Shown: positions 1,920 through 12,025 of the stretch, in pieces | Position numbering within the stretch: the first letter of the stretch is position 1 | How the letters are laid out: each line of letters begins with the position of its first letter | NCBI GenBank assembly: GCA_903911305.1 | Contig: CAIWDB010000117.1 | Coordinates: 1-32,514, forward strand | Direction: 5' to 3' | Source: an uncultured Methylococcaceae bacterium | GTDB taxonomy: Bacteria; Pseudomonadota; Gammaproteobacteria; Methylococcales; Methylococcaceae | Length of the DNA stretch: 32,514 nt | Notes under the pieces: generated by a model | Databases searched by the model: none | What the model saw: the letters and a program-made list of their open reading frames with translations, nothing else | Told to the model about the DNA's origin: nothing | Translations under genes and position numbers: made by a program

Positions 1920-2981
1920 ATGAAACGAATCATCTACATTAGTACAGTTAACCGGCATTTAAGCGAGGAAGAGATCGAAAGCATCGGTCAAATCTCGGCT
2001 CGCAATAACTCAGGGGTGGGCATCACTGGAGTGCTTATCTCGGTGCATGACTACTTTTTCCAAGTGCTGGAAGGCGACGAAGATGCCATAGCCCAAGTGA
2101 TTGAACGCATCCGGCGCGATCCCCGGCACAAAGACATGCACATTTTGAAAGCGGAGACTGAAATCACCGAACGACATTTTCCCAAATGGTCGATGCGGAC
2201 CATCCGCTTAGCCGGGTCCGGGGACATAATCTTGCAAGCCATCCGCGACATGCTGCAAAACATTGCCCAATCCCACCGTGTCATTGAGCGTTACACCCAA
2301 CCCAGCGTACTTAAATTCCTCACCGAGGGCGTCAACCCGCTGACCGTGCTGCCTCGAAAAACCGACAAGATCGTATTGTTTTGCGACATGGTTGGTTTTT
2401 CCTATTTATCCGATATGTTCCCGGTGGAACAAGTCGCCGAAGTCGTCAATGCATTCTTGGAAGTCTGCTCGACGACCATTGCCGACCATGGTGGCGTGGT
2501 GGCGAAATATGTAGGCGATTGCACCATCGCCTATTTTGAACAAGGCCAATCAGACAGCGCCATTTCCGCTTGTTTGGATGTGCTGCGCCGAGTCGGCGAA
2601 ATGCGAGGAAATAACCATGATTGCCATCTGATGAAATTCCTGTATTGTGGGCTTGGGGTCGCTGCCGGCACAGTGATCGAAGGCAACTTCGGCTCTTCTG
2701 TGAAAATGGATTACACTGTGCTAGGCGGTACGGTGAACATGGCCGCAAGACTGGAAGCCTTGACCCGCCAAATCGCCAAACCCTTGGCAATGAGCGAATC
2801 CGTGATGCAAGGCGCCCAAGAAAACTGGGCATTTGTCCATGTTGGCGATTTTCAACTGAAAGGCGCGGGGAAATCCTGTCCTGTCTACAGCTTAAATGAC
2901 CCTTTGATGGATGATTTCAAGGACCATAGCCATTTGATTGAGGACATGCGACAAGCCTGTGGAAATCAAGTGCATGAATAG
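1920..2981 (+). CDS. BLUF-domain photoactivated adenylyl cyclase (bPAC-like)
   Basis: A 353-residue protein with an N-terminal BLUF flavin photoreceptor (about 1-95) and a C-terminal class III nucleotidyl cyclase domain (about 148-330). BLUF residues expected for the blue-light switch are present: Tyr6, Asn30, Gln48 in FFQVLEG, and Trp90/Met92 in FPKWSMRTI. The cyclase has metal-binding Asp156 (LFCDMVGFS) and Asp200 (YVGDC). Lys196, Asp264 and Thr266 are the residues expected for adenine recognition, and Asn273 and Arg277 lie in VNMAARLEALTR. From memory, length and order run almost residue for residue with the Beggiatoa enzyme bPAC (350 aa), so the predicted reaction is light-stimulated ATP to cAMP. 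ATG 1920 has an AAAGGG ribosome site 7 nt upstream and places the BLUF strand at the N terminus, so I reject the longer start. A Gly replaces the usual Asp in the LGDxVN motif (LGGTVN). Confidence 0.93.
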   Translation: MKRIIYISTVNRHLSEEEIESIGQISARNNSGVGITGVLISVHDYFFQVLEGDEDAIAQVIERIRRDPRHKDMHILKAETEITERHFPKWSMRTIRLAGSGDIILQAIRDMLQNIAQSHRVIERYTQPSVLKFLTEGVNPLTVLPRKTDKIVLFCDMVGFSYLSDMFPVEQVAEVVNAFLEVCSTTIADHGGVVAKYVGDCTIAYFEQGQSDSAISACLDVLRRVGEMRGNNHDCHLMKFLYCGLGVAAGTVIEGNFGSSVKMDYTVLGGTVNMAARLEALTRQIAKPLAMSESVMQGAQENWAFVHVGDFQLKGAGKSCPVYSLNDPLMDDFKDHSHLIEDMRQACGNQVHE

Positions 2982-3016: not shown

Positions 3017-3613
3017 GTGGAACGGACATCTGAAATTGAGAGAGGCTTTACCTTGCCCTTGCAAAACGGCGAACCAGTTGATTTCCGACCGGTAAGGCCG
3101 GATGACCGGCAAATCATACAAGAGGGATTTTCTGCTTTGTCCGTCAAATCACGCTATTTCCGCTTCTTTACGCCGCTAGGCAAGCTATCCGGTGAACTTT
3201 TGCGTTATTTGACCGAGGTGGACCAAACAAGCCATGTCGCTTGGATTGCCCTAGCCCATGATGTGCCAGAGCATCCCGGCCTAGGCATCGCCCGCTTCAT
3301 CCGCCTAAAAGACCAGCCCGATATGGCCGAGTTTGCGGTCGTGGTGATTGACCGTTATCACCAAAAGGGATTGGGGACTTTCCTGACGGCAATCCTATAT
3401 CGTTTGGCGAGTATAAAACAAATTAAGACATTACGGGGTTATGTCCTGCCCGAAAACGATGTCATGAGTCATTGGTTGGGCAGACTAGGCGCGGCTGGAG
3501 AATATGACAATGGAACCTATCGGATGGATTTAACTGTTGATGGCGATTTCTCGGGTTTGCCGGATAATGAGACGGGGTGGAAGTTTCGGGAGTGTTTGAA
3601 CAGACTTGGATGA
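3017..3613 (+). CDS. GNAT family N-acetyltransferase
   Basis: About 198 residues from GTG 3017. FRPVRPDDRQIIQEGFSAL followed by SRYFRFF is the start seen in GNAT domains of the Pat/protein-acetyltransferase type. EFAVVVIDRYHQKGLGTFL carries the Q-x-x-G-x-G/A-type acetyl-CoA pyrophosphate loop (HQKGLG). A C-terminal GYVLPENDVMSHWLGRLG helix completes the fold. The acceptor is unknown. cAMP-linked protein acetyltransferases exist, and the neighbour is an adenylyl cyclase, but no cNMP-binding domain is present here, so a link is only a guess. The start is uncertain: TTG near 3053 has a better GAGAGAGG ribosome site than the GTG. Confidence 0.8.
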   Translation: MERTSEIERGFTLPLQNGEPVDFRPVRPDDRQIIQEGFSALSVKSRYFRFFTPLGKLSGELLRYLTEVDQTSHVAWIALAHDVPEHPGLGIARFIRLKDQPDMAEFAVVVIDRYHQKGLGTFLTAILYRLASIKQIKTLRGYVLPENDVMSHWLGRLGAAGEYDNGTYRMDLTVDGDFSGLPDNETGWKFRECLNRLG

Positions 3614-4411: not shown

Positions 4412-5152
4412 CTAATCCGCAGATTTAGAACGCTTGCGGGCAAACCCCATCAGCAACGAACCGATGGCGAATAGCCCTAAGCTGGAAGGCTCAGGTACAT
4501 TATTCGTCGTTAAGGCAGTTGCGGAAAGAAAGCGAGCGGGTAGATTGGCTCCGGTGATGGCACCCAGACTAGTCAAACCGCCAGTGGCAGTATTGACCGA
4601 ATAAAGATGCATATCTGCACCAATGCCATATAACGCATTCTGCACATCAAAAAGCGGCATTGCTGTATAGTGGCTATCCCAGCTACCTATCCCCGTACCG
4701 ACACCCGTTAATGTATTGATTGAAAACAACTGCGGATTTCCCCACCATGAAGAGTCGTAAAGTATTCCATTACTAAAAGCCAAAACGCCAGATATATTAC
4801 TAGATTGAGTTCCTATATTCCCAATATTTGTATATGCAGCCGTTGCCAGATTGAGAGTGCCTAAACGGTTAGCGCTACCGTCACCACCATTATTCGCATA
4901 GAGTATGCCGGTCGCATCAAAAGCTACGCCAGAAATTTTGAACCCGGTGGAACCGATGGATGTCAGGTTGCCGTTTGTGGCAACAGTATACAAAGTAGAG
5001 GAGGCATTAATTTCTCTAGTCGCGTAAAGCTGTCCATTGTAGTTTGCCAAACCGCCCAACCTTTGTCCGTTATTGGCATTGATTTGGGTGTAAGCCCTAG
5101 TCTGAAGATCAAGCGTACCAAACTCATTAACATTGCCTGCCACATACACCAT
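4412..5152 (-). CDS. PEP-CTERM sorted surface protein (in-frame part; signal peptide out of frame upstream)
   Basis: The longest frame with a start encodes 246 residues. The C terminus is a textbook PEP-CTERM sorting signal: VPEPSSLGLFAIGSLLMGFA, then the basic tail RKRSKSAD. This motif is recognised by the exosortase/EpsH system, which anchors or exports proteins that often take part in exopolysaccharide or biofilm matrix. The body is a repetitive beta-rich region of about five blades (for example FGTLDLQTRAYTQI, RLGTLNLATAAYTNIG, LYSVNTATGGLTSLG), suggesting a propeller-like fold. No signal peptide follows ATG 5152, although PEP-CTERM proteins need one. The missing signal peptide is encoded just upstream, out of register by one CT repeat unit (see 5153-5240). 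ATG 5152 is therefore probably not the native start. Confidence 0.85.
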   Translation of the reverse strand: MVYVAGNVNEFGTLDLQTRAYTQINANNGQRLGGLANYNGQLYATREINASSTLYTVATNGNLTSIGSTGFKISGVAFDATGILYANNGGDGSANRLGTLNLATAAYTNIGNIGTQSSNISGVLAFSNGILYDSSWWGNPQLFSINTLTGVGTGIGSWDSHYTAMPLFDVQNALYGIGADMHLYSVNTATGGLTSLGAITGANLPARFLSATALTTNNVPEPSSLGLFAIGSLLMGFARKRSKSAD

Positions 5153-10119: not shown

Positions 10120-11466
10120 ATGAATGAAGAACCCTTAATCAGTATTCCCGAACCCGTTACATCTGACAATTCCGCGTGGATGAATTTGCGTTGGTTTTTT
10201 GTGCTACGCAATCTGCTGATTTGTGTGGAGGCTTTGAGCGTACTGATCAGCGTCTACGGCCTTGACATACCGCTGCACCAAACCGCTTTGACGGGCATCA
10301 TCACCTTGCAAGTCAGCCTTAATTTTTACACTTGGCTCAGATTGGATAATGATCGCCCCGTCAAGCCGTCCGAGCTTTGCCTGCAATTAGGCTTGGACAT
10401 ACTGACCATCACCGGCATACTTTACTTCACGGGTGGTGCAACCAACCCGCTCACGTGGTTTTATCTGCTTCCCCTGATTATTGCGGCTATCGTATTACCG
10501 CAGACTTTCACCTGGTATCTGGTGATTTTCGCCTCTTCCTGTTATACGATATTAATGCTGTATTACGAGCCTTTGCCGCTCATTATACCGATGACCTTCA
10601 ACGATGTGGCCTTGCATGATCATCACGTCATGATGGATCATGACGATATTAGGGTTCATGTGTTCGGCATGTGGTTCGGATTTGTATTTAGTGCGGTATT
10701 GGTGGCCTATTTCGTCGTCGGCATGGCCGATTCCTTGCGAAAACTCGACCGCAAGTTGTCGAATGCACGTGAACAGTCGCTACGCAACGAGCGAGTCGTC
10801 GCGTTAGGAACCTTGGCGGCTGGTGCGGCGCATGAAATGGGGACACCCTTGGGGACTATGGCGATCTTAATCCATGACATGGAGAAGGAATACGAACATT
10901 CCCACTCTCAAGAGTTGTACCAAAAGATGAAAATTCTGCGCGAACAAGTGAACCGATGCAAGGCGGCGCTTTCGGTAATGTCCGCCTCGGCAGGTGCCAT
11001 TCGTGCAGAGTCGGGACGAATCATGCCCATTTCCCGCTATATTGAGGAAATCGTCGCCACTTGGCGTCAACAAGGCTTGGACACCGAACTCGACTATGTG
11101 AAGACAGGGTTTGAACCTTCGCCCAATATTCTGGCCGAACGGACCTTGACCCATGCAATAATTAACATAATGAACAATTCTTCCGATGCCTCGCCGCAAG
11201 GCATCAAATTACGGGTACGATGGACGATTGAATACGCTATTTTTGAAATATTGGATGAAGGGCCGGGCATTTCACCTGCTATATCCGCCACCTTGGGGAA
11301 AGACCCCGTGTCCAGCAAAGAACACGGTCTAGGCGTGGGGCTTTTCTTGGCTTTCGCCGCCATCGAGCGACTGGGTGGTAAAATTAAAATGCAGCCGCGT
11401 ACAGACAAACGCGGCACTTTAACACGCATCACCCTGCCTGTGACCGGGGCAACTGGAGAAGTTTGA
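10120..11466 (+). CDS. regB: RegB/PrrB family redox-sensing histidine kinase
   Basis: A 448-residue membrane kinase with about six N-terminal membrane segments (25-200). The quinone-sensing signature GGATNP is at 105-110. The phospho-acceptor His238 lies in the RegB-type H-box TLAAGAAHEMGTPLGTM. The redox-active cysteine region LREQVNRCKAAL is conserved (Cys280). The ATPase part has NNSSDAS (N box), DEGPGIS and GLGVGLFLAF (G boxes). RegB/PrrB kinases respond to quinone redox state and oxygen and control energy metabolism. A striking loop before the last helix, LHDHHVMMDHDDIRVH (165-180), is very His/Asp-rich. regA starts 1 nt after the stop codon. Confidence 0.93.
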   Translation: MNEEPLISIPEPVTSDNSAWMNLRWFFVLRNLLICVEALSVLISVYGLDIPLHQTALTGIITLQVSLNFYTWLRLDNDRPVKPSELCLQLGLDILTITGILYFTGGATNPLTWFYLLPLIIAAIVLPQTFTWYLVIFASSCYTILMLYYEPLPLIIPMTFNDVALHDHHVMMDHDDIRVHVFGMWFGFVFSAVLVAYFVVGMADSLRKLDRKLSNAREQSLRNERVVALGTLAAGAAHEMGTPLGTMAILIHDMEKEYEHSHSQELYQKMKILREQVNRCKAALSVMSASAGAIRAESGRIMPISRYIEEIVATWRQQGLDTELDYVKTGFEPSPNILAERTLTHAIINIMNNSSDASPQGIKLRVRWTIEYAIFEILDEGPGISPAISATLGKDPVSSKEHGLGVGLFLAFAAIERLGGKIKMQPRTDKRGTLTRITLPVTGATGEV

Positions 11467-11467
11467 A

Positions 11468-12025
11468 ATGACAATCAAATTGCCGGATCATTCGGAACAA
11501 CCACGTATGTTGCTAGTGGATGATGATGCAACTTTTTGCATGGTTCTGAAAATGGCAATGCAAAAGAGGGGATTCGAAGTGTTTGTCGCCCATGACCTGG
11601 CAACCGGAATTGACTTGGCCGAAACGGCTGTGCCCGAATTTGCCGTCATTGATTTACGCATCGGTCACGAATCGGGGCTTTCTCTAGTCAAGCGGCTTGT
11701 CGAATTGGATGATCACACCCGAATCGTCATGTTGACTGGCTTTGCCAGCATTGCCACGGCGGTGGAGGCGATCAAGCTCGGTGCCATTCATTATTTGACC
11801 AAGCCGGCGGACGCTGACGAAATTGTGGCCGCCCTGCATAAAGACGGCGGTGACGAAAGCGTGGAAATCAAGGACAAGCCACTGTCAGTCAAGCGCTTGG
11901 AGTGGGAGCATTTGCAAAAAATATTGGTGGAACACGACAACAACATTTCCGCCGCCGCCCGTGCTTTGGGAATGCACCGGCGAACCTTGCAAAGAAAGTT
12001 GGAAAAACGGCCTGTGAGGAACTGA
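11468..12025 (+). CDS. regA: RegA/PrrA/ActR family response regulator
   Basis: A 185-residue regulator partnered with the kinase just upstream. The receiver has the acidic pair in LLVDDD (15-20), phospho-acceptor Asp62 in AVIDLRIG, Thr90 in VMLTGFAS and Lys112 in YLTKPAD. A short linker leads to a Fis-type helix-turn-helix at the C terminus, NNISAAARALGMHRRTLQRK, whose RRTLQRKL recognition helix is nearly invariant in the RegA family. It is expected to control oxygen- and redox-dependent genes of respiration and carbon or nitrogen metabolism. Targets cannot be told from here. Confidence 0.94.
   Translation: MTIKLPDHSEQPRMLLVDDDATFCMVLKMAMQKRGFEVFVAHDLATGIDLAETAVPEFAVIDLRIGHESGLSLVKRLVELDDHTRIVMLTGFASIATAVEAIKLGAIHYLTKPADADEIVAALHKDGGDESVEIKDKPLSVKRLEWEHLQKILVEHDNNISAAARALGMHRRTLQRKLEKRPVRN

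Follow-up and report, generated by a model that had tools for sequence, protein, structure and literature searches.

In photoactivated adenylyl cyclases (PACs), a flavin absorbs light, the BLUF domain changes and the connector helix switches on the conversion of ATP to cAMP in a homodimer. The closest described systems are OaPAC from Oscillatoria acuminata (PDB 5x4t, 4yus), which has the same two-domain layout and the same photochemical and catalytic residues as the PAC described here, and bPAC from Beggiatoa (PDB 5m27), in which layout and key residues also agree once the numbering is shifted by one. The connector helix that joins the BLUF and cyclase domains is described, with its role and layout, in PMC6937261. 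For LprA, the PAC of Leptospira kobayashii, the role in its own host has been studied, and light modulates swimming motility there (PMC9043183).

The PAC of the present locus differs from OaPAC (45.0% identity) in carrying Gly270 in place of an aspartate, in belonging to a methanotroph branch and in having a candidate redox partner encoded in the same genome. Its identity to bPAC is lower (41.2% over 347 residues), and bPAC sits with OaPAC and proteins of another family, designated f35. Like LprA it is a natural bacterial PAC, but its putative output is a redox protein rather than motility.

A predicted BLUF-type adenylyl cyclase in a methanotroph

The window, by which we mean the whole stretch of 32,514 nucleotides that was analysed, is contig C117 of a methanotroph genome (G000; 5.84 Mb in 661 contigs). 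An open frame on its forward strand (positions 1920–2981, ATG to TAG) encodes a PAC of 353 residues, composed of a BLUF domain (residues 1–92, positions 1920–2195; Pfam PF04940, E 1.4e-28), a linker (residues 96–145, positions 2205–2354) whose alignment with the OaPAC connector-helix region is free of gaps, and a class III cyclase domain (residues 151–318, positions 2370–2873; PF00211 Guanylate_cyc, E 1.7e-11). The initial annotation, made from the DNA letters, had read the same two domains in the same 353 residues. In a phmmer search against the PDB, OaPAC (5x4t) aligned to residues 1–329 without a gap (E 6.1e-98), so that the BLUF-to-cyclase join fits the layout of OaPAC and bPAC, and bPAC (5m27) aligned to residues 1–335 (E 1.7e-91). 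No match was found in an NCBIfam search, and a structure prediction based on five close sequences gave a model of unusably low quality (mean pLDDT 41.5).

The residues of the BLUF switch are all present (Tyr6, Asn30, Gln48, Trp90 and Met92). In the cyclase domain, whose residues we take to have their customary roles, both metal aspartates (Asp156 and Asp200), the purine pocket (Lys196, Asp264 and Thr266), the catalytic Asn273 and Arg277 are retained. The nine positions listed in the initial annotation (Tyr6, Gln48, Asp156, Lys196, Asp200, Asp264, Thr266, Asn273 and Arg277) were all recovered, and alignment with bPAC gave the same layout with each of them one number below its bPAC counterpart, assuming the bPAC numbering in which the tyrosine is Tyr7.

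Homologues at 80–87% identity were found in four uncultured Methylococcaceae MAGs. Compared with these four congener copies, the window PAC gave dN/dS values of 0.03–0.08 for the BLUF domain, 0.08–0.16 for the linker and 0.07–0.10 for the cyclase, ratios which are rough since several dS values exceed 1. The low values in the cyclase part indicate purifying selection on the catalytic part. A pseudogene or a chance open frame can be dismissed on the basis of the conservation and the dN/dS values. The gene thus very probably encodes a BLUF-type photoactivated adenylyl cyclase, with a predicted light activation and a predicted preference for ATP that agree with its residues.

Phylogenetic position

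A tree was built from the BLUF domain and linker only, using 22 stand-alone PAC rows and 27 rows from PACs fused to a second protein (described below), after leaving out three fragments (L029, L048 and L136) and three near-duplicates (L113, L119 and L123). The window PAC fell within a methanotroph clade of 44 rows, apart from bPAC and OaPAC (support 100/98), and bPAC grouped with OaPAC and the f35 proteins of genomes G069, G213 and G320 (100/98). Nearer kin of bPAC exist in another gammaproteobacterial family, with identities to bPAC of 59.1% (G213) and 58.5% (G069). The description of the window PAC as closely matching bPAC was therefore overstated, and a close orthologue of bPAC or a member of the bPAC subgroup is ruled out by identity and tree alike. 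What holds of the proposed natural bPAC relative in a chemotroph is the enzyme type and the host: the prediction that a chemotroph naturally carries an adenylyl cyclase of the BLUF type has good support, because the congeners are uncultured Methylococcaceae MAGs.

Two second copies of PAC, L024 (G034:C180:17690–18718) and L025 (G036:C115:3772–4800), sit together on one long branch of the tree and have serine in place of the second metal aspartate.

A partner protein with DoxX, NDH-2-like and CNB parts

A search of 38 genomes of the window's family revealed PAC sequences inside much longer open frames (965–1238 residues) in G016, G025 and G037. The additional N-terminal part of these frames matched the Pfam domains DoxX, Pyr_redox_2 (NDH-2-like) and cNMP_binding (CNB); DoxX was not among the matches of the G037 frame, which a contig end truncates. 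The window genome encodes this partner as a separate, PAC-free protein of 896 residues (G000:C248:6898–9585), and the PAC and partner genes lie on different contigs (C117 and C248), with no linkage apparent from the assembly.

The NDH-2-like part of the window partner (PF07992, E 7.7e-16) makes up the middle of the protein and aligns with an NDH-2 type NADH:quinone reductase (PDB 9mqy; E 1.2e-22), which it also resembles in a C-terminal stretch. The partner differs from that enzyme by its additional DoxX and CNB parts; its separate forms read GGT instead of GGG in their first FAD motif and lack a recognisable GD motif at the C-terminus, judged by what we take to be the FAD and NADH motifs of NDH-2. 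The altered FAD motif and the missing GD motif make the redox activity of the partner unsure, and with such doubtful cofactor motifs the NDH-2-like part may be a sensor or a scaffold rather than an enzyme.

The CNB of the window partner (P0002 FGEIALLQDSIRTATV) carries the stretch FGExAL...RxATV, which we take to be the phosphate-binding cassette consensus of PKA-type CNBs, and is accordingly predicted to bind cAMP. Seventeen separate partner rows were compared; the cassette is present in all 15 that cover the CNB, the other two (L082 of G003 and L083 of G024) being cut by contig ends. The CNB of G024 lies on its other fragment, L084.

Beyond the order, where the draws contain few of the order's own members, only G000 matched the partner at full length among 369 genomes of the class (E to 1e-30), and only G000 matched among 398 genomes of the phylum (E to 1e-50). 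Partial or weak matches were obtained in five further class genomes, one of them a frame of 554 residues in G197 that spans the NDH-2-like and CNB parts with 26% identity.

Co-occurrence and gene order

In an order-wide survey of 251 genomes (PAC E to 1e-30, partner E to 1e-40), PAC and partner were each found in 47 genomes: 45 carried both, two PAC only (G011 and G012), two the partner only (G003 and G024) and 202 neither. Of the two genomes with the partner only, G024 is 72% complete, and in G003 a contig end cuts the partner, which has 74% identity with the G016 fusion, shares its GGG motif and may therefore be a truncated fusion. When the 31 genomes with a fused gene were left out, 14 genomes with both, two and two with one, and 202 with neither remained, a co-occurrence with a Fisher p of 3e-18 when kinship is ignored; within the window's family alone the p value, again ignoring kinship, was 5e-6. 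The 14 unfused genomes with both proteins fall in four genera, and one congener of the window genome (G026) has neither. That PAC and the DoxX/NDH-2-like/CNB partner go together across the order is a new observation.

Gene order links the two in some genera. In all six genomes of genus g14 (G031–G036), the partner is followed by PAC and then by an MBL-fold metallo-hydrolase, with a gap of 154–232 nt between partner and PAC in the five cases measured and a run that crosses contig ends in G036. Two of these hydrolases were run against Pfam and both matched Lactamase_B_2, one of them also a receiver domain. In G022 and G023, the partner is followed by an Apyc1-family gene with an MBL fold (PF23023, E 2.2e-30 in G023) and a small cytochrome c gene, and then by PAC on the other strand; homologues of the small cytochrome c also occur in the loci of G031, G032, G035, G037 and G509. 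Apyc1 is a phosphodiesterase family for cyclic mononucleotides, and the neighbouring hydrolases are candidate erasers of the PAC signal. Genomes of genus g8 that lack PAC (G013 and G014) also carry Apyc1-like genes, so membership of this family does not by itself point to a PAC circuit.

The fused form

A single gene encoding partner and PAC, with the sensor as the C-terminus, was found in 31 genomes, three from the window's family and 28 from family f2, the latter being all the PAC-bearing f2 genomes in the draw. The frames of G037, G541 and G565 are cut at the start by a contig end. In G606 the fused gene is split: L147 (C139) runs through the CNB into the BLUF domain and then into off-family sequence, and the rest is found on L136 (C76). 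This break within the BLUF domain may be a contig artefact or break, or an insertion.

Every fused row retains Tyr6, Asn30, Gln48, Trp90 and Met92 where it covers them. The cyclase residues follow another course. The first metal aspartate, Asp156, has given way to Ser, Asn, Thr, Lys or Cys in all 31 fused rows, and each stand-alone row covering the position retains it. Among 27 fused rows, Asp200 is kept in four, Asn273 in one, Arg277 in six and Lys196 in 17; the 22 stand-alone rows all keep Asp156, Lys196, Asn273 and Arg277, and 20 of them keep Asp200, the exceptions being the second copies of G034:C180 and G036:C115.

The CNB has changed as well. The cassette FGExAL...RxATV occurs in none of 29 fused CNBs, all 29 of which instead show R-x-[ED]-[TS]-[VI], with an acidic residue before the threonine (serine in one row) that is present in none of the separate partners. 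The 29 represent the 31 fused proteins, one copy with an identical stretch having been dropped and G606 lying outside the set; examined separately, the G606 cassette is of the fused type. We infer that the altered cassette would spoil cAMP binding.

Mean identities among the fused proteins were 0.70 for the BLUF domain, 0.73 for the linker and 0.50 for the cyclase, and among 17 stand-alone methanotroph PACs 0.58, 0.65 and 0.58, respectively; since the fusion, BLUF domain and linker have stayed conserved and the cyclase has drifted. Pairwise dN/dS in the fused form, from nine pairs of which eight gave BLUF and linker values and seven gave cyclase values, was 0–0.15 for the BLUF domain, 0–0.07 for the linker and 0.12–0.36 for the cyclase, a range overlapped by that of the stand-alone cyclases (0.06–0.10 in six pairs and 0.13 in one). 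The fused pseudocyclase thus looks relaxed but not free, as would be expected of a structural relay.

In the PAC tree, the 27 fused rows form a single clade (100/99) nested among the stand-alone methanotroph PACs, with the window genus as its sister at modest support (85/76). This nesting indicates one fusion, from a catalytically intact stand-alone PAC, with decay of the cyclase afterwards. As fusion, cyclase loss and cassette change all fall in one clade, they count as one event and not as 31. A quick tree of the partner part also placed 29 fused rows apart from 14 separate rows, with the warning that long branches meet there.

Proposed mechanism and alternative explanations

The best overall explanation, which we consider probable, joins a light-to-cAMP PAC, a partner that reads the cAMP through its CNB, and fused relatives that are free of the messenger. 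In the lake methanotroph of the window, blue light would be absorbed by the flavin of the BLUF domain and the signal would pass through the connector helix, leading to the formation of cAMP from ATP in a homodimer. The CNB of the separate partner encoded on C248 is, by comparison with its relatives, likely to be the main reader of this cAMP, and light would thereby tune a redox module in the membrane, possibly under photo-oxidative stress. In the fused relatives a tether would have replaced the messenger. The lost cyclase residues and the altered CNB cassette suggest that the BLUF domain and pseudocyclase there probably act on the redox part directly. A wider and more tentative proposal is that these are two forms of one blue-light-controlled membrane redox protein, a messenger form, to which the window genome would belong, and a fused form in which cyclase and cAMP site have decayed and the pseudocyclase serves as relay. 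In some genomes, the messenger form may possibly include the adjacent hydrolase as eraser.

If true, natural PACs would gain a specific effector that is not a transcription factor, and light would be tied to a membrane redox protein in methanotrophs. A second messenger would have been replaced by a covalent tether, a change that can be compared across living relatives, and the fused BLUF–pseudocyclase–redox protein would offer optogenetics a new design. The literature searched yielded nothing joining methanotrophs with BLUF and blue light, nothing joining BLUF, cyclic nucleotide binding, oxidoreductase and adenylyl cyclase, and nothing joining NDH-2 or NADH dehydrogenase with a cyclic nucleotide-binding domain and cAMP.

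The most serious alternative, although an unlikely one, is that the PAC works but that its cAMP enters a general pool for CRP-like regulators, the partner being one reader of several or no reader at all. The window genome does hold 11 CNB matches above the cut-off, the partner among them, and two of the others look CRP-like by eye. At L033:1152–3841 (G000:C466), the frame of one of these two overlaps a class III cyclase frame of 652 residues, perhaps a second writer–reader pair for cyclic nucleotides in this genome. Moreover, G069, G213 and G320 carry PAC and are absent from the six partner-matched genomes among the 369 (apparently the same draw), and together with G011 and G012 they indicate that PACs can serve other readers. 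The placement of PAC and partner on separate contigs of the window genome also weighs against the proposed link. The co-occurrence, the neighbouring genes in g14, the fusion and the joint change of cyclase and CNB residues nevertheless favour the partner as main reader. A further BLUF match in the window genome (L032, G000:C446:11079–11351) lies in a frame of 142 residues without a cyclase match.

Another possibility, which we regard as improbable, is that PAC and partner merely share a light or oxidative-stress regulon, with the CNB binding some other ligand and the fusion reflecting co-regulation. It draws on the genes around the loci. A homologue of a di-haem cytochrome c peroxidase-like protein (Haem_bd/CCP_MauG, from a Pfam run on one f2 member) lies beside the fusion in 20 of 28 f2 loci, downstream and on the same strand in the 19 with tabulated positions; in two g14 loci such a gene is found about 3 kb off on the other strand. 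MsrP- or MsrQ-like genes, called by Pfam (PF00174 or PF01794) or by similarity, occur near five of 56 compared loci, including the partner locus of the window genome, and a photolyase gene follows the fusion in G016. Such neighbours hint at photo-oxidative stress. Against this possibility stands a CNB cassette that is canonical in 15 of 15 separate partners and differs just where the cyclase is dead.

The G016 locus (L090:4898–13063) carries on one strand a short PAS protein, MsrP/MsrQ-like genes, the fusion and the DNA photolyase; the NCRFLQG stretch of the PAS protein is presumably LOV-like.

Two reports (PMC12211021 and PMC7474682) raise the idea that light inhibits the oxidation of methane in lakes, although in the second one's own data no clear relation to the intensity of light emerged, and it allows that such effects could be limited or even absent. 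A link between the PAC system and such inhibition is speculative.

Residue 270

The sequence LGGTVN in the window PAC, pointed out in the initial annotation, is real, with Gly270 (codon at 2727–2729, forward strand) at the position of Asp271 in bPAC. Residue 270 is glycine in all five stand-alone PACs of the window genus, aspartate in most other stand-alone PACs, glutamate in G022 and G023, and asparagine in the two second copies. Given this variation within the methanotroph branch, dark activity cannot be read from LGG, and any effect on the dark activity of the window PAC is only a guess. Taking LGG as the sign of a dead enzyme is unsupported, since D, E or G occurs in relatives with intact catalytic residues. 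That the cyclase is constitutive, inactive or cGMP-making, with no light-to-cAMP switch, could be argued from Gly270 and from the fact that residues cannot show activity, but is very improbable given that all catalytic and purine-pocket residues are kept and that the cyclase dN/dS against the congeners is low.

Genes around the window PAC

Three genes on the forward strand flank the window PAC. Upstream lie an AIG2-like gamma-glutamylcyclotransferase (547–1035; PF06094, E 3.6e-18), a homologue of which (70%) is found directly upstream of PAC in two of the four congener loci (L005 and L006), and a Schlafen AlbA_2-domain protein (932–1831; PF04326, E 2.8e-15), for which no homologue was found in the four congener loci L005–L008. 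Downstream, starting 35 nt past the PAC stop, is a GNAT-like acetyltransferase (3017–3613; PF13302, E 6.6e-4, under the Pfam cut-off), with homologues (61–80%) after PAC in L005, L006 and L007 and none found in L008. By Pfam, no eraser is present among these three neighbours, and PF23023 (the Apyc1 family) had no match in the window genome.

Further along the window, a histidine kinase (HATPase_c) adjoins a response regulator with a Fis-type HTH (10120–12025). The HEMGTP motif of the kinase recalls, on our assumption, the RegB/RegA redox system, and the pair would be another redox- or light-related regulator in the window. On the minus strand, a MASE1 sensor domain is found in an open frame that is cut by the window edge (2–424), and a PEP-CTERM protein is encoded at 4412–5152.
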